Assembly (NCBI RefSeq): GCF_030811715.1
Contig: NZ_JAUSRH010000007.1
Coordinates: 62,001 to 126,000, forward strand
Reading direction: 5' to 3'
Source: Sinomonas atrocyanea
Lineage (GTDB): Bacteria > Actinomycetota > Actinomycetes > Actinomycetales > Micrococcaceae
Length of the DNA: 64,000 bases
The notes beneath the pieces were generated by a model that had not been told where the DNA came from, did not search any database, and saw only the letters and a list, made by a program, of their open reading frames with translations. Made by a program: the position numbers and the translations under genes. Of the stretch, positions 11,805 to 29,071 are shown piece after piece; the stretch's first letter is position 1; each line of letters starts with the position of its first letter.

Positions 11805-12125
11805 ATGCCCGATACTGCGACCGAGCAGACCGCGGCGGCAGCCGCGACCACTCCCCTGAACGACCCGGCGGCCCCGGGCGGCCCCGCCGAGGAGAAGCTG
11901 GCGTACCGGCTCCTGACCGGTCCGGACACCCGCGAGTTCTGCGCCCGCATCTCCCAGGCGCTCGCCGACGGGTACGTGCTCCACGGCAGCCCGGCCGCCA
12001 CCTTCAACGGCACGGACGTCATCGTGGCCCAGGCCGTGGTCCTTCCCCACACGGTGGCCCGGGCGGACGCCGCGGTCGCCTCCGCCGTGGACTCCCTCGA
12101 GTACGAGGGCGAGGGCCACGCGTGA
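11805..12125 (+). CDS. DUF1737 protein of the metZ operon
   Basis: 106-aa soluble protein. After an Ala/Thr-rich disordered N-terminus (about 35 residues) comes KLAYRLLTGPDTREFCARISQALADGYVLHGSPAATFNGTDVIVAQAVVLP, a DUF1737 domain. The function of DUF1737 is not known. ATG 11805 follows GAAGGAG by 7 nt. It is the first gene behind the SAM riboswitch and its stop overlaps the rhodanese start (GTGA), so it is made together with the sulfur enzymes. A role in sulfur transfer or methionine synthesis is an inference from this position. Confidence 0.85.
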   Translation: MPDTATEQTAAAAATTPLNDPAAPGGPAEEKLAYRLLTGPDTREFCARISQALADGYVLHGSPAATFNGTDVIVAQAVVLPHTVARADAAVASAVDSLEYEGEGHA

Positions 12126-12535: not shown

Positions 12536-12543
12536 AGAATTCC

Positions 12544-13752
12544 GTGAGCTTTGACATCGACGCCGCCAGCTGGAGCGAGGACACGCAGGCGGTGCGCGGG
12601 GGACTCCTGCGCTCAGATTTCCAGGAGACGTCCGAGGCGGTCTTCCTCACCTCGGGGTTCGTCTACTCCTCGGCCGAGGCCGCCGAGCGCGCCTTCACCG
12701 GCGAGGAGGAGCGCTTCGTCTACTCGCGCTACGGCAACCCCTCCGTCGCGACCTTCCAGGAGCGGCTCCGACTGCTCGAGGGCACCGAGGCGTGCTTCGC
12801 CACGGCGTCCGGGATGTCCGCGGTGTTCACCGCGCTCGCGGCCCTGCTGGGGGCCGGGGACAGGGTCGTCGCCGCGCGCAGCCTGTTCGGCTCGTGCTTC
12901 GTGATCCTGAACGAGATCCTGCCCCGCTGGGGCGTGGAGACCGTGTTCGTGGACGGCCCCGACCTCGACCAGTGGCGCGAGGCGCTCTCCGTGCCCACGA
13001 CGGCCGTGTTCTTCGAGTCACCGTCGAATCCGATGCAGGAGCTCGTGGACATCCAGGCCGTCGCGGACCTCGCGCACGCCGCGGGCGCGAAGGTCGTCGT
13101 CGACAATGTCTTCGCCACTCCCCTGCTCCAGCGCAGCCTCGACTTCGGCGCGGATGTGGTCGTGTACTCCGGCACCAAGCACATCGACGGCCAGGGCCGC
13201 GTGCTCGGCGGGGCCGTGCTGGGCACGAAGGAGTTCATCGACGGGCCGGTGAAGAACCTCATGCGGCACACCGGCCCGGCGCTCTCCGCCTTCAACGCCT
13301 GGGTGCTCGCCAAGGGCCTCGAGACGATGGGGCTGCGGGTGCGGCACTCGTCCGCGAGCGCCCTGGCCATCGCCGAATGGCTCGAGGCGCGCCCGGAGGT
13401 CCGCTGGGTCAAGTACCCGCATCTGGCCTCGCACCCGCAGTACGAGCTCGCGAAGAAGCAGATGAGCGCCGGCGGGACCGTCCTGACGTTCGAGCTGGAC
13501 GCCCCCGAGGGCCGGGGCAAGGAGGCAGCGTTCCGGCTGCTCAACGGCCTGCGGGTCATCGACATCTCCAACAACCTCGGCGATTCCAAGTCGCTCATCA
13601 CCCACCCCGCCACGACCACCCATCGGGCCATGGGGCCCGAGGGGCGCGCGGCCATCGGCCTCGGCGACGGCGTGGTGCGGCTCTCCGTGGGACTCGAGGA
13701 CGTCGGGGACCTGATCGGGGACCTCGAGCGCGCGCTCACCCACGGCGGCTGA
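12544..13752 (+). CDS. metZ: O-succinylhomoserine sulfhydrylase (PLP enzyme)
   Basis: Makes homocysteine from an activated homoserine and sulfide using pyridoxal phosphate, 402 aa. YSRYGNPSVATFQERLRLLEG, ATASGMSAVFTALAALL, VFFESPSNPMQELVDI, VVDNVFATPLLQRSL and VVYSGTKHIDGQGRVLGGA (PLP Lys in SGTKH) are clear Cys/Met-metabolism PLP motifs; SLGDSKSLITHPATTTH appears as NLGDSKSLITHPATTTH. The GDSKSLITHPA ending and length favour MetZ over cystathionine gamma-synthase. GTG 12544 is the start; the ribosome site is weak, so translation may depend on the upstream rhodanese gene. Third gene behind the SAM riboswitch. Confidence 0.9.
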   Translation: MSFDIDAASWSEDTQAVRGGLLRSDFQETSEAVFLTSGFVYSSAEAAERAFTGEEERFVYSRYGNPSVATFQERLRLLEGTEACFATASGMSAVFTALAALLGAGDRVVAARSLFGSCFVILNEILPRWGVETVFVDGPDLDQWREALSVPTTAVFFESPSNPMQELVDIQAVADLAHAAGAKVVVDNVFATPLLQRSLDFGADVVVYSGTKHIDGQGRVLGGAVLGTKEFIDGPVKNLMRHTGPALSAFNAWVLAKGLETMGLRVRHSSASALAIAEWLEARPEVRWVKYPHLASHPQYELAKKQMSAGGTVLTFELDAPEGRGKEAAFRLLNGLRVIDISNNLGDSKSLITHPATTTHRAMGPEGRAAIGLGDGVVRLSVGLEDVGDLIGDLERALTHGG

Positions 13753-13757
13753 GCGGC

Positions 13758-14204
13758 ATGCGGCACTTCGACATCGTCATCACCACGCCCCTCTCGCCCG
13801 GTGAGGCGTGGGCGCGGGTGCTCGATCTGCGGGGCCATGACCGCTTCATCCCGTTCACCCGCATCACCGAAGGCCTCGCCACGGCCGACGAGCTCCACCC
13901 CGGGCACCTCTTCACCGGACGCACCGCCGTGGGACCCGTGGGCTTCGACGACGTCATGACCATCGAATCGATCACCCCGCCCACCGAGGCTGCGCCCGGC
14001 CGGGCCCGGATCGTCAAGGGCGGCCCGCTCGTGCTCGGGGCCGTCGACCTCACCGTCACCGCGCACGACGGCGGCTCGACCGTGCGCTGGTCGCAGGACC
14101 TGGGCGTGGCGCGCCTCGGGCGCGCAGCGAGCTGGGTGGCCGGCGCCGTGGCGCCGCTGCTCTACCGCCCGCTGCTCAAGCGCCTCCTGCGGCACGGCGG
14201 CTGA
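13758..14204 (+). CDS. SRPBCC-family protein
   Basis: 148-aa START-like protein. MRHFDIVITTPLSPGEAWARVLDLRGHDRFIPFTRITEG is the first strand-helix region; STVRWSQDLGVARLGRAASWVAGAVAPLLYRPLLKRLL forms the last strand and a long C-terminal helix with a basic end that could lie on a membrane. It begins 5 nt after metZ, so it may be the last gene of the riboswitch operon. It is not closely similar to the AHSA1-like protein at 6975. Ligand and role are unknown. Confidence 0.8.
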   Translation: MRHFDIVITTPLSPGEAWARVLDLRGHDRFIPFTRITEGLATADELHPGHLFTGRTAVGPVGFDDVMTIESITPPTEAAPGRARIVKGGPLVLGAVDLTVTAHDGGSTVRWSQDLGVARLGRAASWVAGAVAPLLYRPLLKRLLRHGG

Positions 14205-14269
14205 ACGATCCGAGACCCCGGTGGGTGAGCGGCGCCGGACTGCCGGTCGCCGTGCCGGAGAATAGGCGC

Positions 14270-14725
14270 ATGGACACACCCGGGCGGGACCTCAGAGTGC
14301 CTCCGCAGCCCGGCGCCCGGCACGGGATCACCGTTCCCGCGGCGGAACTCGTGGAGCGGTTCAGCCGATCGAGCGGCCCGGGCGGGCAGGGCGTCAACAC
14401 GACCGACAGCCGCGTGGAGCTCCTCTTCGAGCCCGGCACCAGCGTGGCGTTCACCGACGCCCAGCGCGAGCGCGTCCTCACGCGGCTGGCGGGCCGGCTC
14501 GTGGGCGGCCGGCTGAGCATCGTGGCCTCCGGCGAGCGCTCCCAGCTGCGCAACCGGGAGGAGGCCCGCGTCCGGCTCGTCGCACTGCTCTCCGAGGCGC
14601 TCCTGCCGCCGGGGCCCGTCCGCCGGGCCACCCGGCCCACCAGGGGCTCGCAGGTCCGCCGCCTCGAGTCCAAGAAGCGCCGCGGCGAGACCAAGGCGGC
14701 CCGGCGCCGCCTCCCTCCCCCGTAG
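14270..14725 (+). CDS. arfB: ArfB/YaeJ-like peptidyl-tRNA hydrolase (class I release factor domain)
   Basis: Rescues stalled ribosomes by hydrolysing peptidyl-tRNA, 151 aa. The catalytic GGQ is in SSGPGGQGVNTTDSRVEL (residues 38-55). RRATRPTRGSQVRRLESKKRRGETKAARRR is the basic C-terminal tail that enters the mRNA channel in ArfB. No codon-recognition domain is present, unlike RF1/RF2. ATG 14270 is chosen because the family starts just before the GITVPAAELVERFSRSSG segment. It is transcribed alone between the metZ operon and the MFS promoter. Confidence 0.9.
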   Translation: MDTPGRDLRVPPQPGARHGITVPAAELVERFSRSSGPGGQGVNTTDSRVELLFEPGTSVAFTDAQRERVLTRLAGRLVGGRLSIVASGERSQLRNREEARVRLVALLSEALLPPGPVRRATRPTRGSQVRRLESKKRRGETKAARRRLPPP

Positions 14726-14736
14726 CAACTGCACCC

Positions 14737-14792
14737 TTGACAGTGACCCAGGCCACGCCTAGCGTGAAAAAGGGGGTATATCCTATAGGAAA
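14737..14792 (+). promoter_or_regulatory. Promoter and TCCTATAGGA operator (site 1) of the first MFS gene
   Basis: TTGACA (14737-14742), 17 nt, TAGCGT (14760-14765). The palindrome TCCTATAGGA lies at 14781-14790 within ATCCTATAGGAAA, roughly 10-20 nt past the expected start point. AGGAGG (14794-14799) then serves the GTG at 14805. The same 13-mer occurs at 16249-16261 and 24622-24634. The GntR regulator encoded at 19403 is the likely binder. Confidence 0.8.
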
Positions 14793-14804
14793 CAGGAGGC
14801 TATC

Positions 14805-16127
14805 GTGGCCGAAGCTGTCCACGGCGCCATCGGCAGGAAGCGCTGGACGCGCTTGATCCCCGTGGCGATCATCGTCTACATCATCTCGTTCATGGACCGG
14901 ACCAACATCGGATTCGCCCTGAACGGACTCCAGAAGGACCTGGGCATCGACGCTGCACAGCAGGGTCTGGCCGCAGGCATCTTCTTCATCGGCTACCTCA
15001 CGCTCCAGATCCCCGGCGGCCACCTGGCCGAGCGCTGGAGCGCGAAGAAGTTCGTCGGCATCATGATCCTCGTCTGGGGCGTGCTGGCGGTCCTCGGCGG
15101 CTTCATCCAGAACTTCGGGGAGCTGCTCGTCGTCCGCTTCTTCCTCGGCGTGGCGGAAGCCGGCATCTGGCCGGCAATCCTGGTCCTCATCAGCCACTGG
15201 TTCCCCGCGGCCGAGCGCGCCCGCGCCTACGCCTTCTGGATGATGAACATCGCCATCGCCTCGATCATCACCGCGCCCCTGTCCGGGTGGATCCTCTCCT
15301 TCTCGGACTGGCGCTGGCTGTTCATCATCGAGGGCATCTTCCCGTTCGTCATCGCCGCCCCCATCTGGTGGCTGATGATCGCCGACCGCCCGCGCGACGC
15401 CAAGTGGTGCTCGCCCGAGGAGCGCGCCTACATCGAGGAGGGGCTCGCGGCGGACGAGGCCGCGTCCCCGCACGTGGAGCACGTGAGCATCAGGCACGTC
15501 TTCGCCAACAGTGCCGTCTGGCGCCTGACGATCGTGTACTTCCTGATCCAGATCGGCTTCTACGGCCTGAACATCTGGCTCCCGAAGGTCGTCAAGACGA
15601 TCACGTCCGGCTCATCGCTCGAGGTCGGGTTCGTCACCGCGATCCCGTACGTGCTGGCCATGTTCGCCCTCTGGTACAACGCCAAGGCGGCGGACCGCTC
15701 CGGCCGCTACTCGACGCACGTGCTGCTCTCCATGGCCGTCGGCGCCGTGGCCCTGGTCATCTCCGTGGCCACAGGCAGCGCCATGCCGATCCTCGCAGTG
15801 ACGTTCATCAGCATCGCCATGGCGGGCGCCCTGGCCTACGACGGCCCCTTCTGGGCCTCGGCCTCGCGCGCCATGCCCGTGGTCGTCGCGGGAAGCGCCA
15901 TGGGCCTGATCAACGCCGTCGGCAACCTCGGCGGGTTCGTGGGCCCCTACGTCGGAGGGTTCCTCCAGGACGTGACCCATGGGAGCTTCATGGCGACCTC
16001 GGTCTTCCTCGCCACCTGCCTGCTCGCGGCCGGCCTGGTGATGCTCACCCTGCGCAAGGGCGGGGACCGGCCGACGGCGGAGGCCGCCCCGCACGCCGCA
16101 GCCTCCCCCTCCGAACGGCGGGGCTGA
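14805..16127 (+). CDS. MFS transporter, anion:cation symporter family
   Basis: 440-aa integral membrane protein with about 12 predicted helices. VYIISFMDRTNIGFALNGLQKDLG is the typical ACS-family first helix with DRTNIG; GVAEAGIWPAILVLISHWFPAAERARA and a second-half GLINAVGNLGGFVGPYVGG are diagnostic. ACS members carry organic anions such as hexonates, tartrate, phthalate or galactarate, so the substrate is probably a sugar acid. GTG 14805 has a perfect AGGAGG. It has its own promoter and operator and ends at a hairpin (16158-16198), so it is a separate unit from the kinase operon although both share the operator sequence. Confidence 0.9.
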   Translation: MAEAVHGAIGRKRWTRLIPVAIIVYIISFMDRTNIGFALNGLQKDLGIDAAQQGLAAGIFFIGYLTLQIPGGHLAERWSAKKFVGIMILVWGVLAVLGGFIQNFGELLVVRFFLGVAEAGIWPAILVLISHWFPAAERARAYAFWMMNIAIASIITAPLSGWILSFSDWRWLFIIEGIFPFVIAAPIWWLMIADRPRDAKWCSPEERAYIEEGLAADEAASPHVEHVSIRHVFANSAVWRLTIVYFLIQIGFYGLNIWLPKVVKTITSGSSLEVGFVTAIPYVLAMFALWYNAKAADRSGRYSTHVLLSMAVGAVALVISVATGSAMPILAVTFISIAMAGALAYDGPFWASASRAMPVVVAGSAMGLINAVGNLGGFVGPYVGGFLQDVTHGSFMATSVFLATCLLAAGLVMLTLRKGGDRPTAEAAPHAAASPSERRG

Positions 16128-16312: not shown

Positions 16313-18043
16313 ATGACCCGGCTGTGGAATGATCCGGCCTCGTTCGCCGATGACATGGTGGACGGATTCGTGCGCGCCAACACGCGCTGGGTGCGCAGGG
16401 TGACGGGCGGGGTGTCCCGCTCGACCCGGTCCCCGGAGCCCGAGGTTGCGCTCGTGATCGGCGGCGGCTCCGGCCACTACCCGGCGTTCGGCGGCCTCGT
16501 GGGCCCCGGCCTCGCCCACGGCGCGGCGATGGGCAACCTCTTCGCCTCCCCGTCCGCCCATCAGGTCGAGGGCGTGATCCGCGCGAGCGAGCAGGGCCGC
16601 GGCGCGCTCCTGAGCTTCGGCAACTACGCCGGCGACGTGCTGCACTTCGGCGCGGCGCAGGAGGCCGTGCGCGCCGACGGCATCGACTGCCGCACGGTCA
16701 CCGTCACCGACGACATCTTCAGCGCCCCGCCGGCCGAGGCCGAGCGCCGCCGCGGGATCGCCGGCGACCTCACCGTCTTCAAGGCCGCCGGCGCCGCCGC
16801 GGCCCAGGGCTACGGGATCGACGACGTCGAACGCGTGGCCATCGCCGCCAACGCCCGCACGCGTTCCATGGGCGTGGCCTTCACCGGCTGCACCCTCCCG
16901 GGCGCCGAGGAACCCCTGTTCACGGTGCCCGAGGGCAAGATGGCCGTCGGCCTGGGCATCCACGGCGAGCCGGGGATCGACATCACCGACATCCCGAGCG
17001 CGGACGGCCTCGCCGAGCTGTTCGTCCGGCACCTCCTGGACCCCGCCGAGATCCCCGACGGCGCCTCGGTCCGCGGCGGCCGCGTGGTGCCCATCCTCAA
17101 CGGCCTCGGCTCCGTCAAGAACGAGGAGCTCTACGTGGTCTACGCGCGCATCGCGGACCTCCTCGAGGAGGCCGGGCTGACGCTCGTGGACCCGCAGGTC
17201 GGCGAGTTCTGCACGAGCTTCGACATGGCCGGCGCCTCCCTGACGCTCTTCTGGGTCGACGACGAGCTCGAGCGCCTCTGGCTCGCCCCCGCCGACACCC
17301 CCGCCTTCCGCACCGGCTCGATGGACACCTCCGCGCTCGAGGCCGTCACCGCCTCCGGCGAGGACGAGGCGGAGGCCGAGCTGCCGCCGTCGTCCGAGGA
17401 GTCCCGCCAGGCCGCGCGCCTCATCGGCGAGGCGCTCGCCGCGGTGCGGGAGCTGATCGGCGAGCAGGCAGCGGAGCTCGGCCGCATCGACGCGATCGCG
17501 GGCGACGGCGACCACGGCATCGGCATGCAGCGCGGCACGGTGGCCGCCGCGGAGGCTGCCGCCGCGCTGGCCGAGCAGGGAGCGGGCGCCGAGAGCCTCC
17601 TCGTCCGCTGCGGCGACGCCTGGTCCGACCGTGCCGGCGGCACCTCCGGGGCGCTCTGGGGCCTGATCCTCAAGACCGTCGGCTCGCGCCTCGGGGACAC
17701 CGAGCCGCCGACGGCGCCCTCCGTCGCCGCAGGGGTCTCCGCGGCCAGGGACGCGGTCATGGACTACGGCAAGGCGAAGGTGGGCGACAAGACGATGGTC
17801 GACGCGCTCGTCCCGTTCGCCGACACGCTCGCCGAGCGGGTGGAGGCGGGCGAGAGCCTCGCCGAGGCCTGGCAGCGCGCGGCCTCCGCCGCAGCCCAGG
17901 CCGCCGAGGCGACCGCGGACCTCATGCCCGGCATGGGCCGCGCCCGCTCCCACGGCGCCAAGTCCCTCGGCACGCCGGACCCCGGAGCGGTCTCCCTGGC
18001 CCTCATCGTCGAGCGCGTCCACGCGGTCCTCTCGGCCCGCTGA
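16313..18043 (+). CDS. Dihydroxyacetone-kinase-type ketose kinase, fused DhaK-DhaL (erythrulose kinase candidate)
   Basis: ATP-dependent kinase of 576 aa with both domains in one chain. DhaK half (about 1-330): VIGGGSGHYPAFGGLVG, GNYAGDVLHFG and GLGIHGEPGIDI, whose His binds the substrate carbonyl covalently. DhaL half (about 365-575): DAIAGDGDHGIGMQRG holds the Mg-ATP Asp residues, then DRAGGTSGALWG. Fused enzymes of this type include glycerone kinases and the tetrulose kinases LerK and DerK of erythritol/threitol catabolism. The RpiB-like and TPI-like genes downstream match the tetrulose-phosphate isomerases DerI/EryI and LerI/EryH, so L-erythrulose is the best substrate guess. Good ribosome site (GAGGAGAAG). 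First gene of a four-gene operon. Confidence 0.88.
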   Translation: MTRLWNDPASFADDMVDGFVRANTRWVRRVTGGVSRSTRSPEPEVALVIGGGSGHYPAFGGLVGPGLAHGAAMGNLFASPSAHQVEGVIRASEQGRGALLSFGNYAGDVLHFGAAQEAVRADGIDCRTVTVTDDIFSAPPAEAERRRGIAGDLTVFKAAGAAAAQGYGIDDVERVAIAANARTRSMGVAFTGCTLPGAEEPLFTVPEGKMAVGLGIHGEPGIDITDIPSADGLAELFVRHLLDPAEIPDGASVRGGRVVPILNGLGSVKNEELYVVYARIADLLEEAGLTLVDPQVGEFCTSFDMAGASLTLFWVDDELERLWLAPADTPAFRTGSMDTSALEAVTASGEDEAEAELPPSSEESRQAARLIGEALAAVRELIGEQAAELGRIDAIAGDGDHGIGMQRGTVAAAEAAAALAEQGAGAESLLVRCGDAWSDRAGGTSGALWGLILKTVGSRLGDTEPPTAPSVAAGVSAARDAVMDYGKAKVGDKTMVDALVPFADTLAERVEAGESLAEAWQRAASAAAQAAEATADLMPGMGRARSHGAKSLGTPDPGAVSLALIVERVHAVLSAR

Positions 18044-18130
18044 CCGGCTGCCGGACCAGGACCACCGCAGGCCCAGAACGCCACAGACCCAGACCACCAC
18101 AGACGCAGTACCCACGACGAAGGAGCACGC

Positions 18131-18589
18131 ATGCCCGCATGGCGCATCGTGGTCGGCTCGGATGACGCCGGCTTCGACTACAAGGAAGTCATCAAGAAGG
18201 ACCTCGAGGACAGCGGGCTGGTCGCCTCCGTGGCCGACGTGGGGGTGGATGCCGACGGGCACACCAACTACCCCACCATCGCCACGACCGCCGCCGAGAT
18301 GGTGGCCCGGGGCGAGGCCGACCGCGCGATCCTCGTGTGCGGCACCGGCCTCGGCGTCGCCGTCGCGGCGAACAAGGTCAAGGGCATCCGGGCGGTGACG
18401 GCCCACGACAGCTTCTCGGTGGAGCGCAGCGTGCTGTCCAACAACGCCCAGGTGCTGTGCATGGGCCAGCGCGTCATCGGGATCGAGCAGGCGCGCAGGA
18501 ATGTGCGCGAGTGGCTCACGTACGTCTTCGACGAGACGAGCGCCTCCAACGACAAGGTCCGCGAGATCTGCAGCTACGAAGGGCTATGA
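18131..18589 (+). CDS. RpiB/LacAB-family sugar-phosphate isomerase (D-erythrulose-4-phosphate isomerase candidate)
   Basis: 152-aa isomerase. VGSDDAGFDYKEVIKKDLED at the N-terminus, LVCGTGLGVAVAANKVKGIRAVTAHD (active Cys and anion-binding loop) and NNAQVLCMGQRVIG are RpiB landmarks. In erythritol and threitol pathways the homologue EryI/DerI turns D-erythrulose 4-phosphate into D-erythrose 4-phosphate. A plain ribose-5-phosphate isomerase is possible but less likely beside the kinase and TPI homologue. AAGGAGC precedes the ATG by 7 nt. Its stop overlaps the next start (ATGA). Confidence 0.88.
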   Translation: MPAWRIVVGSDDAGFDYKEVIKKDLEDSGLVASVADVGVDADGHTNYPTIATTAAEMVARGEADRAILVCGTGLGVAVAANKVKGIRAVTAHDSFSVERSVLSNNAQVLCMGQRVIGIEQARRNVREWLTYVFDETSASNDKVREICSYEGL

Positions 18590-19410
18590 GCGTGACGGCG
18601 TTCCCGCCCGTCCTCCTCGGCACGAGCACCAAGATGTACTTCACCCACGAGCGCACGCTCGCGTGGTGCCGGTCGGTCGCCGAGATCGCCCGGCGGCACC
18701 CCGCGACCGCGGGCGGGAGCGCGGGACTGTTCGTGGTCCCGGGCTACCTCTCGGTGGCGGCGGCGCTGGGGGCGCTCGACGGCGCCGCCATGGTCGGCGC
18801 GCAGGACCTCGCCACCGAGGACTTCGGCCCGTTCACCGGTGAGGTCAGCGGGGCCCAGCTCGCCGAGCTCGGCTGCTCCCTCGTGGAGGTCGGGCATGCC
18901 GAGCGGCGGCGCCTGTTCGGCGAGGACGACGCCGTGGTGCGCGCCAAGACTGCCGCGGCGCTGCGCAACGGGCTCGTCCCGCTCGTGTGCGTGGGCGAGG
19001 CCCACCGCCTCGAACCGGCGGCGGCCGCGCAGGAATGCATCCGGCAGCTCGACGACGCCCTGGCCTCGGCCGGGGCGTCCGGCCTGTCCGGCCGAGTGAT
19101 CGCCGCCTACGAGCCCCAGTGGGCGATCGGCGCACCACAGCCGGCGGACCCGGACTACATCCGCGCGGTGTGCGCGCCCCTGCGCGACCACGTCCGGGCA
19201 CTGCCCGGGCGCGAGGGCTCGGCTGTCATCTACGGCGGCAGCGCCGGCCCCGGCCTCCTCACCCAGATCGCCGACTCGGCAGACGGCCTGTTCCTCGGCC
19301 GCTTCGCCCACGATCCCGCGGCGGTGGAGGCCATCCTCGACGAGGTCGCCGCCCTCGTCGGCACAGGCGGGACTGGTACCATCAAGGACTCAGGAGGAGC
19401 CCATGTCTGA
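18586..19410 (+). CDS. Triose-phosphate-isomerase-like protein (L-erythrulose-1-phosphate isomerase candidate)
   Basis: TIM-fold isomerase, 274 aa. GTSTKMYFTHERTLAWC replaces the usual G-N-W-K; this STKMY form is, as I know the family, typical of the LerI/EryH branch rather than of glycolytic TpiA. The catalytic Lys is kept. VEVGHAERRRLFGEDD holds the electrophilic His and AYEPQWAIGAPQPADP the catalytic Glu; YGGSAGPGLL is the phosphate loop. In known pathways this branch converts L-erythrulose 1-phosphate to D-erythrulose 4-phosphate. It overlaps rpiB-like upstream by 4 nt and the GntR gene downstream by 8 nt. Confidence 0.88.
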   Translation: MSVTAFPPVLLGTSTKMYFTHERTLAWCRSVAEIARRHPATAGGSAGLFVVPGYLSVAAALGALDGAAMVGAQDLATEDFGPFTGEVSGAQLAELGCSLVEVGHAERRRLFGEDDAVVRAKTAAALRNGLVPLVCVGEAHRLEPAAAAQECIRQLDDALASAGASGLSGRVIAAYEPQWAIGAPQPADPDYIRAVCAPLRDHVRALPGREGSAVIYGGSAGPGLLTQIADSADGLFLGRFAHDPAAVEAILDEVAALVGTGGTGTIKDSGGAHV

Positions 19411-20125
19411 GACCGTCTACCCCCTCGCCGGGGCCGCAGCCCTCGAGCGCCGGGGGCTGCGTGACCGCGTCTACGATCTGGTCCTCGACATGCTCATGAC
19501 GGCGGACCTGGCCCCCGGGACGCGGCTCTCCATCGACGCGATCGCCCGGGACCTCAAGGTCTCCCCCACGCCCGTCCGCGAGGCCCTCGTCCAGCTCGAG
19601 CGCACCGGACTCGTGACCCGGGAGGCCCTCAAGGGCTACCGCGTCGCCCCGCCGCTCGCCGAGGATCACCTCGAGGCGCTCTTCGATGCCCGCCTCGTGC
19701 TCGAGGGCGGCGCCACGGAACTCGCGGCCCGGCACGCGGAGACGCTCGTGCCCCGCCTGGAGCAGGCCCTCGCCGCGCACATCGAGATGACGCGCGTCGT
19801 CGACGAGGCCGTGGCGCACGGCGAGAAGCTCTCGCTGGCGCTGATGCGCGACTACTACGCGGTCGACTGGAACTTCCACCACCTCATCTTCGAGGGCACG
19901 CAGAATCCGTTCCTGATCGACATGTCCGAGGCCATCTCGACCCGCGTCCACCGCATGCGCCAGACCGTCAAGTCCGGGGTGAGCGACGCGGACGAGGCCG
20001 TGGTCGAGCATGGCGCCATCCTCGAGGCCTTCCGCTCCGGGGAGGGCGCCGCCGCTGCCCGCGCCATGCGCGCCCACATCGAGCGGGTCCGCGAGCGGGC
20101 CCGCCGGGACGTCGCCTCCTCCTGA
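19403..20125 (+). CDS. GntR-family (FCD) regulator of the locus
   Basis: 240-aa regulator. The winged HTH covers residues 10-75: RDRVYDLVLDMLMTADLAPGTRLSIDAIARDLKVSPTPVREALVQLERTGLV. The FCD ligand domain follows with FDARLVLEGGATELAARH and the metal-binding set in DWNFHHLIFEGTQNPF and VEHGAILEAFRSGEGAAAARAMRAHI. AGGAGGAG lies 5 nt before the ATG; the gene starts inside the end of the TPI-like gene. As the only regulator in the 14.7-24.65 kb locus it probably binds ATCCTATAGGAAA found before each of the three transcription units, including its own. The ligand is presumably a pathway acid or sugar phosphate. Confidence 0.9.
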   Translation: MSETVYPLAGAAALERRGLRDRVYDLVLDMLMTADLAPGTRLSIDAIARDLKVSPTPVREALVQLERTGLVTREALKGYRVAPPLAEDHLEALFDARLVLEGGATELAARHAETLVPRLEQALAAHIEMTRVVDEAVAHGEKLSLALMRDYYAVDWNFHHLIFEGTQNPFLIDMSEAISTRVHRMRQTVKSGVSDADEAVVEHGAILEAFRSGEGAAAARAMRAHIERVRERARRDVASS

Positions 20126-20169
20126 CGCCGGCTGCTCCCCGCGGCTCCAGCTCCCCCGCAACCCACGCA

Positions 20170-20213
20170 CGACGCCGGGCCGGTCACCTCACGAGGTGAC
20201 AGGCCCGGCGTCG
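20170..20213. terminator. Hairpin terminator after the GntR gene
   Basis: CGACGCCGGGCC (20170-20181) pairs with GGCCCGGCGTCG (20202-20213). An inner stem GTCACCT/AGGTGAC extends it, so the whole is one long interrupted hairpin. Confidence 0.85.
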
Positions 20214-20246
20214 TCCTCGCCTCCGGCCACCCGGCGACGAACGGCA

Positions 20247-20280
20247 GGCGCCCCCAGACCCTCGAGGGTCTGGGGGCGCC
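20247..20280. terminator. Perfect 34-bp palindrome terminator of the left-going operon
   Basis: A perfect palindrome with 17-nt arms: GGCGCCCCCAGACCCTC on the left and its exact complement on the right, with TCGA at the centre. It lies 14 bp from the end of the left-going MFS gene. Together with the hairpin at 20170 it separates the two converging operons. Confidence 0.85.
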
Positions 20281-20294
20281 ATGGGCCGTGCGGG

Positions 20295-21671
20295 TCAGTG
20301 GACCGGGGTAAACTCCTCGGCCCCGAGCAGCTCGTCCGACTTCGCGCCCTTGAAGAACTTGGTTGCGAAGACCATCGCGGCGGCGAGGAAGGCGAAGACG
20401 CCCAGGGACACCACGCCCCACTCGCCGCTCTTGGTGGGCAGCGCGTCGTTGAACGCGGTCCGCATGAGCGGGGCCACGAAGCCGCCGAGGTTGCCCAGGG
20501 AGTTGATGAGGCCGATGCCGGCCGCGGCGGCGGCGCCGGTGAGGAAGGCCGTGGGGTAGGCCCACGTGATCGGTCCGACGGTGAGGAAGCTCGCCACCGC
20601 GAGGGTGATGAACAGGATGCCGAGGAGCGGCAGGTTGTTCGCGCCGGCCCAGGCGGAGCCGATGATGAACACGCCGGTTCCGACGTAGAGCAGGCTGCCC
20701 CAGTTGCGCCGGCGGGCCACCGTGTGGGCCGCCTTGCCGAGGAAGTAGCAGGCGAACAGGCCCACGAGCCACGGGATGGCGGAGACGAGGCCGACCTCCC
20801 AGCCGACCTTCTTGCCCAGCAGGCCCGCGACCTCCTGCGGGAGGTAGAACGTGGTGCCGTAGACCGCGATCTGGAGGGCGAAGTAGATGACCGTGAAGTA
20901 CCAGACCTTCCAGTTCGCCATCGCGCGCCAGATGCCGCTCGGGCCGTCCTCGGTGCGGGCACGGTCCTCGACCGCCATCGCGTTCGAGAGGGCGAGCTTC
21001 TCCTCGTCGGAGAGGAACTTCGCCTTGGCCGGGCTGTTCGTGAGGAGGAACAGCGCCGCGATGCCGGCGATGACGGCGAGCAGGCCCTCGCCGAAGAACA
21101 TGACCTGCCAGCCGCGGGCGAAGCCCAGGGAGTCGCCGAAGCTGATGAGTCCGCCGGAGAGCGGCGCTCCGATCATCTGCGAGAACGGCTGGGCGAGGTA
21201 GAAGATCGCGAACATCTGCACGCGGACCTTGTTCGGGAACCACTCGGACAGGAACATGATCACGCCCGGGAAGAGGCCGGCCTCGGTCACGCCGAGGAGG
21301 AAGCGCAGCACGTTGAACATGACGTCGTCCGTGGTGAAGGCGAACGCTGCCGCGACGATGCCCCACGTGATGGAGATGCGCGCGAGCCAGAAGCGTGCGC
21401 CGAAGCGCTTCAGGAGCAGGTTGCTGGGCACCTCGAAGAGGGCGTAGCCGATGAAGAAGATGCCGGCGCCGAGGGCGAACGCGGCGTCGCCGACGCCCCG
21501 GTCCGCCCTGAGGGCCGCCTGGGCGAATCCCACGTTAGTGCGGTCGAGGAAGGCGACGAAATAGAGGATGACCAGCATCGGCATCAGGTGCCGTGCGGCC
21601 TTCGCGATGGCGGATTTCAGCGCAATGTCATGCGCCGAGGGCGCGGCCGTCCGCGGAGCGGGCAGGGTCAC
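20295..21671 (-). CDS. MFS transporter, anion:cation symporter family (second of the locus)
   Basis: 458-aa membrane protein, about 12 helices. MLVILYFVAFLDRTNVGFAQAALRAD, GVTEAGLFPGVIMFLSEWFPNKVRVQMF and GIGLINSLGNLGGFVAPLMRTAF mark the ACS family. GTG 21671 follows AAAGGAGAG. Last gene of the left-going operon; a 34-aa membrane protein is encoded just before it. It is only distantly similar to the MFS at 14805, so the two may import different related acids or one may be an exporter. Under the same operator sequence as the rest of the locus. Confidence 0.9.
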   Translation of the reverse strand: MTLPAPRTAAPSAHDIALKSAIAKAARHLMPMLVILYFVAFLDRTNVGFAQAALRADRGVGDAAFALGAGIFFIGYALFEVPSNLLLKRFGARFWLARISITWGIVAAAFAFTTDDVMFNVLRFLLGVTEAGLFPGVIMFLSEWFPNKVRVQMFAIFYLAQPFSQMIGAPLSGGLISFGDSLGFARGWQVMFFGEGLLAVIAGIAALFLLTNSPAKAKFLSDEEKLALSNAMAVEDRARTEDGPSGIWRAMANWKVWYFTVIYFALQIAVYGTTFYLPQEVAGLLGKKVGWEVGLVSAIPWLVGLFACYFLGKAAHTVARRRNWGSLLYVGTGVFIIGSAWAGANNLPLLGILFITLAVASFLTVGPITWAYPTAFLTGAAAAAGIGLINSLGNLGGFVAPLMRTAFNDALPTKSGEWGVVSLGVFAFLAAAMVFATKFFKGAKSDELLGAEEFTPVH

Positions 21672-21734
21672 GTCAGCTCTCCTTTGAGATGAACCTAGGG
21701 GTTGGGTGTCGTTGATGGAACGGGAACGGTGGTG

Positions 21735-21839
21735 CTAGCGGCCCTGCAGGAGCGTGACGACGCCGACGGCGACGAACACGATCCCGATGGCCAGGAAGGC
21801 GAGGCGGGACTTCGACCAGGGGCCGATGATGGATTTCAC
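21735..21839 (-). CDS. 34-aa single-pass membrane microprotein
   Basis: Short ORF between the SDR and MFS genes of the left-going operon. It starts at GTG 21839; GGAG lies 7 nt upstream and just past the SDR stop. The product is 34 residues: a basic N-terminus (VKSIIGPWSKSR) and one hydrophobic helix, LAFLAIGIVFVAVGVVTLL, ending QGR. That is the layout of a small transmembrane protein, N-terminus inside. It is 63 nt ahead of the MFS gene, so an accessory role for that transporter is an inference. Many annotations would miss it because of its size. Confidence 0.7.
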   Translation of the reverse strand: MKSIIGPWSKSRLAFLAIGIVFVAVGVVTLLQGR

Positions 21840-21853
21840 GCGGGTGCTCCGTC

Positions 21854-22621
21854 TCAGTGCATGTACAGGCCGCCGTCGACGTTCAGGGTCTGGCCCGTCA
21901 CGAAGCCGGCGTCCTCGCTGATGAGGTAGGCGATGGCCGCGGCGATGTCCCGCGGGGTCCCGATGCGCGGCAGCACGCCGTCGGCCGCCATCTTCTCCTT
22001 GCGCTCGTCCGTGAGCGTGCCGCCCATGATGTCCGTGTCGATCGGCCCGGGCGAGATCGCGTTGGCGGTGATGCCGTGCTGGCCGAGCTCGCGGGCGATG
22101 CTGCGCGTGAACCCGATGACGCCGGCCTTGGCCGCGGAGTACACGGTCTTGCTGTAGGTCCCGCCGCCGCGCTGGGCGGAGACCGAGGACAGGCTGACCA
22201 CGCGGCCCACGCCGTTCTTGACCATGGACTCGACGGCGCGGCGGGTGGCGTAGTGGACGCCGTTCATGTTGATGCCCATCACGCGGTTCCACTCCTCCGC
22301 GGTGACCTCGAGGTAGGGCACCGGCGAGGAGACGCCGGCGAGATTGACGAGGGCAACGATCTGGGGCAGCTCGCCCTCGAGCTCGTCGAACGCCGCGCGG
22401 ACCTGGGCCTCGTCCGAGACGTCGGCGCCGGCGCCGGCAGCCTGGACGCCGTGCTCGAGGGCGATCTCCTCGGCCACGCGCTTGGCGGCCTCGGCCTCGA
22501 CATCGATGATGCCGATGTTCCAGCCGCGCTCGGCGAGGTAGTGGGCGGAGGCGCGGCCGATGCCGCGCGGGGAGGCCGCGCCGGTCAGGACGACGGTGCG
22601 GGATGCGGGGAAGTCAGTCAT
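21854..22621 (-). CDS. Short-chain dehydrogenase/reductase
   Basis: Classical NAD(P)-dependent SDR, 255 aa. VVLTGAASPRGIGRASAHYLAERG is the glycine-rich nucleotide site; IIDVEAEAAKRV has an acidic residue after the second strand, which favours NAD+. LVNLAGVS replaces the usual NNAG; the catalytic Ser is in VVSLSSVSAQRG and YSAAK is the YxxxK pair. ISPGPIDTDIMGG and NVDGGLYMH close the fold. AGGAGAT precedes the ATG. Third gene of the left-going operon. It probably oxidises a secondary alcohol of the imported polyol or sugar acid, or epimerises it with the neighbouring dehydrogenase. Confidence 0.88.
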   Translation of the reverse strand: MTDFPASRTVVLTGAASPRGIGRASAHYLAERGWNIGIIDVEAEAAKRVAEEIALEHGVQAAGAGADVSDEAQVRAAFDELEGELPQIVALVNLAGVSSPVPYLEVTAEEWNRVMGINMNGVHYATRRAVESMVKNGVGRVVSLSSVSAQRGGGTYSKTVYSAAKAGVIGFTRSIARELGQHGITANAISPGPIDTDIMGGTLTDERKEKMAADGVLPRIGTPRDIAAAIAYLISEDAGFVTGQTLNVDGGLYMH

Positions 22622-22637
22622 GCGGATCTCCTGGTCT

Positions 22638-23615
22638 TCAGTGGGCAGCCGCGGCGGGCGCCGGCTGGATGGGGGCGGGGCCGAGCTCGTCCATGAGCTT
22701 CTTGATGGCCACATAGGCCTTGTTGCGGTAGGCGACGAGCTCCGGGGTGCGCTCCGCGGGGACGTCGAGGTAGCCGGCGCCGGACTTGGTGCCGAACTTG
22801 CCGGCGTCCACGAGCTCCTTGAGGGACTCCGGGGTGGCGAACCGCTCGGGCCAGCGGGTCTGCAGCGACGCGTAGCAGAACGCGTACACGTCCAGGCCGG
22901 CCATGTCCGCGATCGCGAACGGCCCGAAGACGGGCAGGCGGAAGCCGAACGTGGTGCGCACGATCGTGTCGATGTCCTCCGGGGTCGCGATGCCCTCCTC
23001 GACGATCTGCGTGGCCTCGTGGAACAGCGCGTACTGGAGGCGGTTGAGCACGAACCCGGTCGCGTCCTTCACCCGGGCCGTCTCCTTGCCGGTGGAGGCG
23101 ACGAGGTCCTCGACGAGCGGGATCACGGCCTCGTCCGTCCCGGCGTGGGGGATGAGCTCGACGCCGGGAATGAACGGAGCCGGGTTGGAGAAGTGCACGC
23201 CGAGGAACCGCTCCGGGTTCGTGACGGCCTCCGCGAGCGAGGCGATGAGGATCGTCGAGGTGTTGGAGCCGATGACAGCGTCCGGCCGCGCCGCCGCGCT
23301 GATGCGGCGGAGGGTCTCGTGCTTGATCTCGATCTTCTCGGGCACAGCCTCCTCGATGAAGTCCGCGTCGGCCACCGCTTCCTCGATCGAGGCGGCAGGC
23401 GAGAGGTGCGCCTCGAGGCGCGCGACGGCGTCGTCCGGGAAGAGCCCGTCCGCCACGAACTGGCGGGCCTCGGCCAGGAGCCGCTCGTAGTTGTTGGTGG
23501 CGATCTCCTCGGAGATGTCCGCGATCTTGACAGTGGCGCCGGCGAGCGCGAGGACCTGGGCGATCCCGCCGCCCATGTATCCGGAGCCGACGACGGCAAC
23601 GGTGATGTCAGGCAT
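22638..23615 (-). CDS. 3-hydroxyacyl-CoA-dehydrogenase-family sugar-acid dehydrogenase (L-gulonate 3-dehydrogenase-like)
   Basis: NAD-dependent dehydrogenase, 325 aa. VAVVGSGYMGGGIAQVLALAGATVKIADI is the Rossmann motif with Asp at the end of strand 2. SNTSTILIASLAEAV, RFLGVHFSNPAPFIPGVELI (catalytic His in the HFSNP motif), ATGFVLNRLQYALFHEA and FGPFAIADMAGLDVY follow the order of beta-hydroxyacyl-CoA dehydrogenases. No thiolase or hydratase is near, and the gene sits in a sugar operon, so the lambda-crystallin/L-gulonate 3-dehydrogenase branch fits better. Such an enzyme would make a 3-oxo acid ready for decarboxylation. Second gene of the operon, 9 nt after the TIM-barrel gene. Confidence 0.85.
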   Translation of the reverse strand: MPDITVAVVGSGYMGGGIAQVLALAGATVKIADISEEIATNNYERLLAEARQFVADGLFPDDAVARLEAHLSPAASIEEAVADADFIEEAVPEKIEIKHETLRRISAAARPDAVIGSNTSTILIASLAEAVTNPERFLGVHFSNPAPFIPGVELIPHAGTDEAVIPLVEDLVASTGKETARVKDATGFVLNRLQYALFHEATQIVEEGIATPEDIDTIVRTTFGFRLPVFGPFAIADMAGLDVYAFCYASLQTRWPERFATPESLKELVDAGKFGTKSGAGYLDVPAERTPELVAYRNKAYVAIKKLMDELGPAPIQPAPAAAAH

Positions 23616-23624
23616 GTGGTTCTC

Positions 23625-24563
23625 CTAGCCCTTGGGGAGCAGAGTGCGGATGTACTTCTGGTTCGTCGCGCAGACGCCGAGGCTGTCGCCGCCGTAGTGC
23701 TCCGTGAGGATGATCCCGTCGAAGCCGGCCGCGATGGCGTCGCGGAACACCTGGCGGTAGTTGATGAGGCCCATCTCCATGGTCGAGGGCACTGAGGTGG
23801 CCCAGCTGCCGTCCCCGGCCTCGTCGCGCGTGTAGTTCTTCACGTGCCAGTAGTTGGCGTACGGGAGGGTCTTGTCGAAGAGGTAGCGCCAGTCCTCGAC
23901 CGGCCGGTGCAGCCGGATGAGGTTGGCGACGTCCGGGTTGATGCCCACGTTGTCCAGGCCCACCTCCTCGATGAAGCGCACCGCGCTGTCGGCCGTGCCC
24001 ACGTAGGTGTCCTCGTACATCTCGAGCGACATCCGCAGGCCGACGTCCGCGGCGTGCTTGCCGAGCTCGCGGATGCGCCCGACGGCGGTGTCCCAGACTT
24101 CGCGGTCGTCGGGGTCCTTGGGGCCCTCGGCGGTCCAGAACCACAGGGCCTTGCGCTGGGCCTCGCTGAAGGGCTGGTGGAGGCCGGTCGAGAAGACCTG
24201 CATGCCCCACTCGGCCGCGGCGTCGATGGTCCGGTGGGCGTAGGCGAGGTTGCGCTCCTCGTGGCCGGGCATGATCACGCTCTGGCGCTGGAGGTGGACC
24301 GACGGGATGCCCACGCCGTGGGACTTGGCGATGGCCAGGAACTCGTCCCTGCGAGCGGGCTCGAGGTCGGCCGGGCGGACGTGGCTGTCCGCCAGCTCGG
24401 CGAGGTTGAAGCCGACGTCGGCGATCTGGGCGAACATGTCGTCCCAGACCTCGGGCGATGCATCATGCATCGCCACTCCCGTGCGGCGGTCCACCGCCTG
24501 GAATCCGTGGAGGCAGGTCGCGATCGGCCATGACTCTGCCGTGAACGCTGGTTGGTTCGACAT
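23625..24563 (-). CDS. Xylose-isomerase-like TIM-barrel sugar-phosphate isomerase/epimerase family protein
   Basis: 312-aa protein of the AP-endonuclease-2 superfamily. Likely metal-site segments are SVHLQRQSV, MSLEMYEDTYVG (Glu), VGINPDVANLIRL (Asp), YWHVKNYT (His) and GIILTEHYGGDSLGV (Glu). The family includes isomerases, epimerases, dehydratases and decarboxylases such as the one acting on 3-oxo-isoapionate. First gene of the left-going operon, 60 nt from operator site 3. Paired with a 3-oxo-acid-forming dehydrogenase and with an erythrulose kinase route, decarboxylation of a 3-oxo C5 acid to erythrulose is the chemistry I would test first. Isomerase or epimerase activity is the alternative. 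Confidence 0.82.
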   Translation of the reverse strand: MSNQPAFTAESWPIATCLHGFQAVDRRTGVAMHDASPEVWDDMFAQIADVGFNLAELADSHVRPADLEPARRDEFLAIAKSHGVGIPSVHLQRQSVIMPGHEERNLAYAHRTIDAAAEWGMQVFSTGLHQPFSEAQRKALWFWTAEGPKDPDDREVWDTAVGRIRELGKHAADVGLRMSLEMYEDTYVGTADSAVRFIEEVGLDNVGINPDVANLIRLHRPVEDWRYLFDKTLPYANYWHVKNYTRDEAGDGSWATSVPSTMEMGLINYRQVFRDAIAAGFDGIILTEHYGGDSLGVCATNQKYIRTLLPKG

Positions 24564-27897: not shown

Positions 27898-29010
27898 TCA
27901 GCCGTTGTCCCCCGCCGGGGTCGAGGAGGCGGTGTAGCCCTCGAGCTTGAGGGCCGCCTGGGCGTACTTCTGGGTGAAGGTGTCCGAGACCTTGATCTTG
28001 GACGTGTCCACGCCGATCGTCTTCTCCTCCTCGAAGATCGTCTTCGGGCCGCCCTCGGGCATGATCCCGTCCGGCAGGAACTGCGCCTTGTCCTGGTCGA
28101 GCGCCTTCACGTACTGGTCCTTGGTGATGGTGGCGTTCTGGACGTAGGACTGCGGCAGCTTGTCCGCGATGTCCGCCGCGGAGTGGGTGCTGATCCAATG
28201 CATCGTGTCCACGAGCGCGTCGACGACCTTCTGGGCGGCGTCCTCGTGGGACTTCACCCAGTCCGCCTGGGCCAGGAGCCCGGCCGAGGGGAGCGTGCCG
28301 CCCAGCGCGGCCTTCGCGCCGTCCGCCGTGGCCAGGTCGATTGCCGGGACCGCGAGGTTTTTGGCCTCCAGCGCCCCGACGGTGGGCTGCGTGGTCATGA
28401 CGCAGTCGGCCGAGCCGCGCTGGATCGCCGCGATCGCGGTGGCACCGGCGCCCACGGCGATGGTGTGGTAGTCGTTCTTCGAAATGCCGGCCTTGGACGC
28501 GATGAACTGGGTGAGCTCGTCGGTGCCGGAGCCGAGGTCCGTCACGCCGACGGTCTTGCCCTTGAGGTCCGCGCCGGTGTGGACGTTGGCCTTGGGGCTG
28601 CACATGATGCGCTCGCCCGGCGCTCCGGAGAGCTGGACGAGGTTGATGACGTTCTTGCCCTTGGACTGGAAGTCGACGGTGTGGATGTACCAGGCGCCGG
28701 CCATGTCGACCTGGCCCGAGGCCATCGCGTCCTCGGCGCCGACGCCGCCCTGCTGCTCCGTGGAGAGCTCCACCTTGACCCCGTACTTCTGGTAGTACCC
28801 CAGCTGCTGGGCGAGCTGGTACGGGAGGTAGATCTGCTTGTCGATGCCGCCGACCATGAGCTTGACCGTGGGCATGTTCGCGCTGTCCGCGCTGGAGCCG
28901 CCGCCGGCGGTGCTCCCGCTCGAGGCGGTGCTGCCCCCGCCGCAGGCGGACAGGCTGAGCGCCACGGCTCCGGCGGCGGCTGCGGCGTAGATGCTGCGCT
29001 TCATCTTCAT
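27898..29010 (-). CDS. ABC transporter substrate-binding lipoprotein (SsuA/TauA/NitT-like)
   Basis: Extracytoplasmic binding protein, 370 aa, anchored by a lipid: KRSIYAAAAAGAVALSLSACGGGS has a lipobox with Cys near residue 21. A Ser/Gly-rich linker is followed by a periplasmic-binding-protein-2 fold, VKLMVGGIDKQIYLPYQLAQQLGYYQKYGVKVEL, then AMASGQVDMAGAWY and KGKTVGVTDLGSGTDELTQFIA. The family takes up sulfonates, nitrate, taurine or thiamine precursors; no residue here settles which. I prefer ATG 29010 to 29022 because AGAGG directly abuts the latter. First gene region downstream of a shared promoter? No: it is the last gene of the importer operon, after ATPase and permease. Confidence 0.87.
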   Translation of the reverse strand: MKMKRSIYAAAAAGAVALSLSACGGGSTASSGSTAGGGSSADSANMPTVKLMVGGIDKQIYLPYQLAQQLGYYQKYGVKVELSTEQQGGVGAEDAMASGQVDMAGAWYIHTVDFQSKGKNVINLVQLSGAPGERIMCSPKANVHTGADLKGKTVGVTDLGSGTDELTQFIASKAGISKNDYHTIAVGAGATAIAAIQRGSADCVMTTQPTVGALEAKNLAVPAIDLATADGAKAALGGTLPSAGLLAQADWVKSHEDAAQKVVDALVDTMHWISTHSAADIADKLPQSYVQNATITKDQYVKALDQDKAQFLPDGIMPEGGPKTIFEEEKTIGVDTSKIKVSDTFTQKYAQAALKLEGYTASSTPAGDNG

Positions 29011-29071
29011 TGTTGTACGCATCCTCTGTGTTATTCCTGATGGAATTTCCGGGTGAAAAAGGGAAGAAATA

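Follow-up and report, generated by a model that had tools for sequence, protein, structure and literature searches.

A candidate route from pentonates to erythrose 4-phosphate by C3 oxidation and decarboxylation in Sinomonas atrocyanea

The catabolism of D-apionate was reportedly described by Carter and colleagues in 2018 as passing through 3-oxo-isoapionate, which OiaC decarboxylates to L-erythrulose, followed by the action of LerK, LerI, and DerI. A similar scheme can be proposed for a gene cluster of Sinomonas atrocyanea, found in a stretch of 64,000 nucleotides (contig NZ_JAUSRH010000007.1, positions 62,001 to 126,000; the whole stretch is hereafter called the window). In both cases a PF01261 barrel would form L-erythrulose from a β-keto acid by loss of CO2, and this would then be handled by a kinase of the same type and by two isomerases. 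We give a probability of about 0.72 to the reading that the cluster encodes a catabolic route that would oxidize C3 of a pentonate, decarboxylate the product to erythrulose, and turn this into erythrose 4-phosphate. Each of these reactions is predicted from sequence, that is, from protein families, gene order, conservation, and the kinship of two lower-module proteins with those of ApnO/OiaC-type clusters. Because the decarboxylation to L-erythrulose and the use of LerK, LerI, and DerI have reportedly been published for D-apionate, novelty is confined to the upper module, which in the window differs from that of apionate; both the lower arm and the principle of decarboxylating a β-keto acid are known. 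An initial annotation of this DNA, made by a model from the letters alone, was right in calling the lower arm established and saw only half of the closeness of the decarboxylation step plus lower arm to the D-apionate pathway. The D-apiose/D-apionate pathway is summarized in the excerpt of PMC6302742, and that of PMC10733421 explains what LerK, LerI, and DerI do.

Other described systems resemble parts of the proposal. In L-gulonate catabolism, a 3HCDH-fold dehydrogenase acts at C3 of an aldonate and decarboxylation then gives a ketose one carbon shorter; the difference is that this route goes from C6 to C5, and the animal 3-dehydro-L-gulonate decarboxylase is not known to be related to the barrel of the window. 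According to the excerpt of PMC12435205, 3-dehydro-L-gulonate is decarboxylated to L-xylulose after the action of L-gulonate 3-dehydrogenase (lambda-crystallin). The erythritol/threitol pathway (EltD/DthD, LerK, LerI, and DerI, in the excerpts of PMC10733421 and PMC12780249) has the same lower module, and its entry is oxidation of a polyol instead of oxidation plus decarboxylation of an acid. Oxidative pentose routes I and II, which run via 2-keto-3-deoxypentonate (excerpt of PMC6336799), have a free pentonate intermediate, as proposed here. Unlike them, the route proposed for the window would use no dehydratase, and C3 oxidation with loss of CO2 would lead to a C4 sugar entering as erythrose 4-phosphate. 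If true, this would be a further entry of pentoses and pentonates into metabolism, distinct from those by xylulose 5-phosphate, 2-oxoglutarate, or pyruvate and glycolaldehyde. Among the matches listed in a literature search of titles and abstract starts, with thin coverage of subscription journals, nothing was found on 3-oxidation of pentonates to erythrulose.

The cluster is formed by two convergent gene runs, with five genes on the + strand and four on the − strand in the list of open reading frames. The − strand carries the proposed upper module. HCDH (22638-23615, −; PF02737 and PF00725), a 3HCDH-fold dehydrogenase and putative pentonate 3-dehydrogenase, would use NAD(P)+ to oxidize the C3 hydroxyl of a pentonate, giving a β-keto acid; TIMb (23625-24563, −; PF01261, 95.4 bits), a xylose-isomerase-like TIM barrel and putative 3-oxo-pentonate decarboxylase, would convert this acid to erythrulose and CO2 in a metal-dependent reaction. 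The lower module is on the + strand. A LerK-like DhaK-DhaL fusion kinase (16313-18043, +), assigned by model NF011049 and by its tree, would be an L-erythrulose 1-kinase producing L-erythrulose 1-phosphate. A LerI-like homolog of triosephosphate isomerase (TPI) of STKMY type (18586-19410, +), assigned by its tree, would convert this to D-erythrulose 4-phosphate, and an RpiB/LacAB isomerase (18131-18589, +; TIGR02133), DerI-like by context, would give D-erythrose 4-phosphate, to be used in the pentose phosphate pathway. The frame of the TPI homolog overlaps the stop of the RpiB homolog by 4 bp. All the genes named in the initial annotation are intact frames, and their families were confirmed by Pfam and NCBIfam.

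The association of these genes goes beyond chance, in agreement with the grouping made in the initial annotation. We compared the best 80 of at least 403 confirmed relatives from an HCDH profile search of genome contigs, some of these loci ending at contig edges (loci and genomes are designated below by L and G numbers). TIMb is present in 79 of the 80 loci, the exception (L046) beginning near a contig end, and in 77 it is the immediate neighbor of HCDH on the same strand, at most 300 bp away. A GntR regulator is found in 77 loci, the kinase in 73, a short-chain dehydrogenase/reductase (SDR) and the second carrier of the major facilitator superfamily (MFS) in 68 each, the TPI homolog in 67, and the RpiB homolog in 57; TIMb, HCDH, kinase, RpiB homolog, and TPI homolog occur together in 49. 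Where the TPI homolog is missing (13 loci), a LerI-type copy exists elsewhere in 12 of the 12 genomes checked (L071 left out). These off-locus copies are 49-59% identical, versus 36-46% for canonical TPIs, and in that of G599 the aligned part contains a TGA. Similarly, 23 loci lack the RpiB homolog, and 10 of 10 genomes checked carry a copy elsewhere (63-77% identity). An independent search for TIMb in 394 genomes of the class retrieved 19 genomes, in which the neighborhood of TIMb contains the kinase (16), the RpiB homolog (15), the TPI homolog (14), HCDH (12), a PdxA-family protein (3), or neither dehydrogenase (4).

The PdxA-family proteins provide an example of replacement at a fixed position. 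In G375 (L114) and G427 (L231), TIMb is directly followed by a PdxA-family protein and then by homologs of TctC and TctA, in the place held by HCDH, SDR, and MFS carrier in relatives. The protein of L114 matches PF04166 with 262 bits and is below the cut-off of the PdxA equivalog (242 vs. 290 bits). Plasmids of Sinorhizobium, Shinella, and Rhizobium also bring together PdxA, a TCT carrier, a TIMb homolog, and the kinase. On a tree of TIMb (53 of 103 rows, six of them long-branched), the HCDH/PdxA label changes four times. A metagenome-assembled genome of Agrococcus (L040:5290-17451) carries, all on one strand, kinase, RpiB homolog, TPI homolog, GntR, TIMb, HCDH, SDR, MFS carrier, PdxA, TctC, and TctA, and thus has two unrelated dehydrogenases with a single barrel. 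A GntP permease accompanies HCDH, without the SDR, in L016, L046, L086, L125, and L126 (345 bits in L125, cut-off 293). The strongest argument that an acid is oxidized at C3 is that three families of acid carriers and two unrelated families of 3-hydroxy-acid dehydrogenases share the same place. Such swapping of unrelated dehydrogenases before one barrel also leads to clear and cheap predictions.

The sequence of HCDH supports its being a 3-hydroxy-acid dehydrogenase unlike the acyl-CoA enzymes. Its nearest relatives among the matches listed are in Sinomonas, with 95% identity. Residues S120, H141, E153, and N191 do not vary among the 22 aligned sequences and are spaced as in 3-hydroxyacyl-CoA dehydrogenase (HAD), whose catalytic residues they presumably represent. 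HCDH falls below the cut-off of every acyl-CoA model, the best scores being 222 bits (cut-off 508), 215 (427), and 191 (408). A loop before the residues GP is three residues longer and basic, with R226 invariant in 22 of 22 sequences, aligned to a Lys of 4om8 and absent from 3mog. An enzyme of β-oxidation was rejected on these scores and on the longer basic loop. The FHMPC dehydrogenase 4om8, a non-CoA enzyme, aligns with HCDH (E = 1.5e-47), and HCDH is below the model of this enzyme (NF042925, 214.8 bits, cut-off 500). Lambda-crystallin (3ado) is matched with E = 1.8e-32 and ranks below many hydroxyacyl-CoA dehydrogenases. The initial annotation's view of an L-gulonate 3-dehydrogenase-like enzyme is supported to the extent that HCDH looks like a 3-hydroxy-acid dehydrogenase, with the HAD residues kept, the acyl-CoA models far off, and the loop longer and basic. 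Action on 3-hydroxyacyl-CoA, which it had named as an outcome that would contradict it, is disfavored at the level of sequence, since no acyl-CoA model is reached.

The solved close relative of TIMb is 5tnv (E = 1.7e-77), listed as "AP endonuclease, family protein 2," a family name that comes without a function. This structure is nearly identical to the barrel of L125 (E = 2.6e-198), whose cluster contains HCDH, GntP, kinase, and the RpiB and TPI homologs. If the proposal is true, it would provide functions for this TIM barrel and for a 3HCDH subgroup whose best models are those of 3-hydroxyacyl-CoA dehydrogenases. Residues E181, D211, H240, and E288 are invariant in the 17 TIMb sequences of a first alignment; in a second set, also of 17, H240 is replaced by Gln in one row and position 288 is a gap in one. 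The initial annotation had also named a simple hexose epimerase as a contrary outcome for the barrel. TIMb reaches 31.7 bits with the D-tagatose/D-psicose 3-epimerase model NF051856 (cut-off 300), and a hexose 3-epimerase was rejected on this score, again at the level of sequence.

The lower module is clearest for the kinase and the TPI homolog, for which trees bear out the LerK- and LerI-like assignments of the initial annotation. The kinase reaches NF011049 (742 bits, cut-off 492) and stays below the glycerone kinase equivalog TIGR02361 (369 bits, cut-off 575). A quick tree (55 of 101 rows) places it in a clade (support 95) that includes all nine kinases of ApnO clusters, and the paralog from a second cluster of its own genome is outside. 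Besides a canonical TPI on contig 16 (296.6 bits), the genome has one other gene of the family, that of the window (164.4 bits), whose product has the motif STKMYF versus the canonical GNWKMN. A quick tree of TPI (68 of 105 rows, midpoint root) places ten canonical TPIs, including the one of this genome, in a single clade (support 99), and the homolog of the window in a separate clade (99) with 10 of 10 TPI homologs of clusters containing PF16896, the ApnO domain. A role as the glycolytic TPI was therefore rejected. The homolog matches the solved LerI (11ef) with E = 1e-31 and is closer to 3s6d, annotated as "putative TPI" (E = 1e-42). The RpiB homolog reaches TIGR02133, the actinobacterial ribose-5-phosphate isomerase (202 bits, cut-off 168), as does the one of the second cluster of this genome, and it is 62-79% identical to RpiB homologs of ApnO clusters (an identity comparison without a tree). 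Its DerI label is by context, since the ribose-5-phosphate isomerase model is reached and the DerI model is not; of the set LerK, LerI, and DerI announced in the initial annotation, the first two are supported by trees, and the third is assigned by context, against the model score. If the proposal is true, functions would be found for copies called "triosephosphate isomerase" or "ribose-5-phosphate isomerase," which probably are neither.

The clusters with ApnO and OiaC are the closest term of comparison for these trees. PF16896 occurs in 21 of the 394 genomes of the class, and a search of the whole genome of S. atrocyanea gave no match, so an ApnO elsewhere in this genome was rejected. Among the 18 of the 21 loci that were compared, an OiaC-like PF01261 barrel adjoins the ApnO-domain protein in 13, an RpiB homolog is found in 11, the kinase and the TPI homolog in 10 each, and an ApnL-like lactonase in 7 (the single one scanned, that of L171, has 193 bits with NF049900, cut-off 750); ApnO, OiaC-like barrel, kinase, RpiB, and TPI are together in 9. 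The names ApnO and OiaC are assigned to these proteins from family and context. With these names, the loci look like the D-apionate pathway via 3-oxo-isoapionate and L-erythrulose. The kinase and TPI homolog of the window fall among those of such clusters, and the Glu/Asp/His/Glu positions of TIMb are identical in nine of nine nonredundant OiaC-like barrels, as are N214 and K242. The genome of the window differs in lacking an ApnO-domain protein, for which 3HCDH (or PdxA in relatives) would stand, and in a barrel that is only weakly similar: the best local match is 33% identity over 94 residues (E = 2e-8), and of the 13 OiaC-like barrels 8 are matched with E under 1e-3. TIMb does not look like an ortholog of OiaC, being distant from these 13 barrels (assigned by context) and having no ApnO alongside. 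A further difference is that relatives with the TIMb-HCDH pair have genes for pentoses nearby, not for apiose.

Such pentose links are seen in Microbacterium. In L085 (Microbacterium sorbitolivorans), one strand reads araB-araD-araA-TIMb-HCDH, then an arabinofuranosidase of glycoside hydrolase family 51 (GH51) and an FAD oxidase. AraA scores 768 bits (cut-off 622), the L-ribulose-5-phosphate 4-epimerase subfamily 373 (251), and ArfA 697 (625); araB is an FGGY kinase named from its position. The order araB-araD-araA-TIMb-HCDH recurs in G455 (L224), with GH51 afterwards on the opposite strand. Both belong to a genus sample with TIMb in 44 of 198 genomes, of which 30 loci were read. GH51 is found in L085, L123, L128, L224, L225, and L226, and in L127 and L089 the TIMb-HCDH pair is accompanied by GH39, an aldo-keto reductase, and an SDR.

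A second subtype comprises nine loci (L215-L223), whose TIMb is 49-57% identical to that of L085. In six of the nine, a GH3 gene directly precedes TIMb, and in four loci read the called frames overlap, by 4 bp in three and by 11 bp in one. The two GH3 proteins scanned score 966 and 1040 bits as beta-xylosidase/alpha-L-arabinosidase, just under the cut-off of 1050. Kinase, RpiB homolog, and HCDH follow downstream, together with an FAD oxidase in L227, L232, and L233; the one of L227 has as solved relatives 8ot8 and the xylitol oxidase 2vfr (E = 3.5e-121). The run of GH3, TIMb, kinase, RpiB, HCDH, and xylitol-oxidase homolog in these three loci (at about 6900-15200) is a candidate for oxidation of xylose or xylitol to erythrulose. 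Nine genomes of this kind were examined over 20 kb: that of L123, which comes from the class sample, and eight from the L215-L223 set. G239, G493, G409, and G450 have a single TPI-family gene, G558, G472, G553, and G545 have a LerI-type copy elsewhere, and G477 (L228) has a TPI homolog within the locus. A rule that absence of LerI from the locus indicates a D-substrate was rejected, as it fails for Rathayibacter loci; because LerI sits off-locus there, whole genomes were used. The second subtype, with GH3, a xylitol-oxidase homolog, and no LerI in 4 of 9 genomes, would be a version leading from D-xylonate to D-erythrulose.

Which acid is used in the window can be approached through stereochemistry. 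Enzymes of the 3HCDH fold generally oxidize 3S hydroxyls and PdxA enzymes 3R ones; L-arabinonate and L-ribonate are the L-pentonates with a 3S center. We tentatively take L-arabinonate as a first guess, because of the 3S preference of the HCDH fold, the requirement for an L-pentonate if L-erythrulose, and hence a LerI substrate, is to be formed, and the araBDA operon of two relatives. As a hypothesis, the type with LerI would use L-arabinonate or L-ribonate, the type without it D-xylonate, and the PdxA type L-xylonate or L-lyxonate. More generally, and with odds somewhat below even, one may imagine a general, so far undescribed pentose route in plant- and soil-associated bacteria, from pentose to pentonate, C3 oxidation, decarboxylation to a tetrulose, and erythrose 4-phosphate. 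Its dehydrogenases would be exchangeable, with 3HCDH serving 3S acids (for example L-arabinonate and D-xylonate) and PdxA serving 3R acids (for example L-lyxonate and L-xylonate), L040 having both; its decarboxylase would be one, and LerI would mark the L-series. In vitro oxidation of vitamin C derivatives gives related C5 acids and threonate, as stated in the excerpt of PMC6225978. The inositol-like genes beside the pair in Clavibacter (L039:2503-9977; PfkB kinase, aldehyde dehydrogenase, and IolB-like, named from sequence) were taken as chance, because another Clavibacter locus (L042) lacks them.

Several observations weigh against a pentonate route in the window. In its cluster, neither a gene for pentoses nor one for a lactonase or an aldose dehydrogenase could be named. 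The stereochemical argument draws on general knowledge of the enzyme families. L123 and L226 carry GH51 in genomes with a single TPI-family gene, which does not fit a rule from GH51 to L-arabinonate to LerI. Pentose glycosidases are probably frequent in Microbacterium, and so mere nearness to them could be chance; the cases internal to operons carry more weight. In the lower module, 12 of 36 kinases from HCDH clusters and 5 of 6 from PdxA clusters are outside the clade of window and ApnO-cluster kinases. A third TPI clade (98), which the midpoint root places on the canonical side, groups L191 with the cluster rows L119, L122, and L125-L128; most of its rows share a GTSWKM-like motif with 11ef, the solved L-erythrulose-1-phosphate isomerase. 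The RpiB homolog is below the DerI model NF051858 (135 bits, cut-off 240; the model is named for rhizobial members), yet passes TIGR02133. Finally, the neighborhoods in L127, L225, and L226 contain genes for ABC transporters of sugar type, not for acid carriers, which suggests that some relatives may import a sugar or oligosaccharide and oxidize it inside. The acid import by ACS carriers put forward in the initial annotation is thus favored by the swapping of ACS-type MFS, GntP, and TCT carriers in relatives and disfavored by these three.

Among other explanations, the barrel may be an isomerase or epimerase, either OtnI-like on 2- or 3-oxo acids or a tetrulose 3-epimerase, with CO2 lost spontaneously or in the dehydrogenase. 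PF01261 includes many isomerases and epimerases, the PdxA-type dehydrogenases able to replace HCDH themselves give decarboxylated products, and an invariant Glu/Asp/His/Glu set would suit such an enzyme as well. An LtnD-like dehydrogenase in 17 of the 80 loci and a DUF1537 kinase in 19 point the same way. This is nonetheless rather unlikely given the retention of TIMb with both dehydrogenase versions, the score with the psicose epimerase model, and the presence of all six residues (E181, D211, N214, H240, K242, and E288) in the weakly homologous OiaC barrel assigned by context. The substrate might also be a branched C5 acid, for example isoapionate (2-C-hydroxymethyl-tetronate); HCDH would oxidize it directly to 3-oxo-isoapionate, by-passing ApnO, with TIMb as an analog of OiaC. 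This is favored by a kinase and TPI homolog of the ApnO-cluster kind and by the Glu/Asp/His/Glu positions common to both barrels, and in L045 an ApnL-like lactonase is upstream of a TIMb-HCDH operon (NF049900, 210 bits, cut-off 750). The links to araBDA, GH51, GH3, and xylitol oxidase in relatives indicate ordinary pentoses instead, and a PF16896 protein also occurs in 6 of the 19 TIMb genomes, which is more natural if each module has its own acid; we regard a branched acid as distinctly unlikely.

Two further explanations start from a tetritol or a tetronate. The cluster may serve erythritol or L-threitol, the SDR making L-erythrulose from a tetritol and HCDH with TIMb forming a side module. 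A tetritol dehydrogenase with LerK, LerI, and DerI is a known arrangement (excerpt of PMC10733421), and the genome has a second cluster with SDR, kinase, and RpiB homolog. At a threshold of 48% identity or more, 25 of the 101 HCDH loci of three samples have no SDR; none turned up in the GntP loci or in L114, L119, L120, and L231, which are PdxA loci, and the SDR of the window is under the cut-off of the GolD/DthD model (156.8 vs. 286 bits); with the ACS carriers, this makes a tetritol cluster very unlikely. The other explanation is that a tetronate is oxidized at C3 and decarboxylated to dihydroxyacetone, to be phosphorylated by DhaK-DhaL, with the TPI homolog acting as TPI. It agrees with the folds of both proteins and with the LtnD-like and DUF1537 genes, and it leaves the RpiB homolog without a task; moreover the TPI homolog is outside the canonical clade in a genome with a normal TPI, the glycerone kinase model is not reached, and relatives have pentose links, so that we hold it to be the least probable of all. 

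Under the pentonate reading, the remaining genes of the cluster would have supporting roles. An MFS carrier resembling ACS members and D-galactonate transporters (14805-16127, +; PF07690, 211 bits; TIGR00893, 284.5 bits, cut-off 395 not reached) has a 92% identical homolog in the L011 cluster. A second MFS carrier of ACS type (20295-21671, −; TIGR00893, 247.2 bits, the same cut-off not reached) adjoins the SDR. The two would import a five-carbon aldonic acid, unless the acid is made internally. The GntR/FCD regulator (19403-20125, +; PF07729 and PF00392), which the initial annotation did not name, may sense the acid. The SDR (21854-22621, −; PF13561, 218.5 bits) lies 16 bp from HCDH and is FabG-like, and no family cut-off is reached among the matches listed (25 of 225 families). 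Because it is missing from about a quarter of the HCDH loci, it is considered an accessory oxidoreductase, which would supply the pathway from a free pentose or an epimer. The initial annotation overlooked it and stated that there is no polyol dehydrogenase of the classical threitol pathways, which is unsafe because the SDR sits inside the very region described.

Some loci with the pair suggest other acids. In L010 (6440-8969), an acid sugar kinase of DUF1537 type and an LtnD-like dehydrogenase (NF043037, 244 bits, cut-off 350) are just upstream of TIMb, and the genome of S. atrocyanea has close copies of both elsewhere (L174:8269-10650, 81-85% identity); in such loci a C4 acid may be used alongside. 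The second tetrulose-type cluster of this genome, outside the window (L009:4919-11399, equivalent to contig C7:144918-151398), contains the N-terminal half of a transketolase, an MFS carrier, a PF01261 barrel, an SDR, a DhaK-DhaL kinase, and an RpiB homolog, without a LerI-type gene, and could be a cluster for D-threitol or D-erythrulose. It is flanked by an NMT1-like binding protein and an ABC ATPase. Within the window, three − strand frames (27898-29022, 29072-29956, and 29953-30828) resemble the binding protein, permease, and ATPase of an ABC transporter, as named from their sequences.

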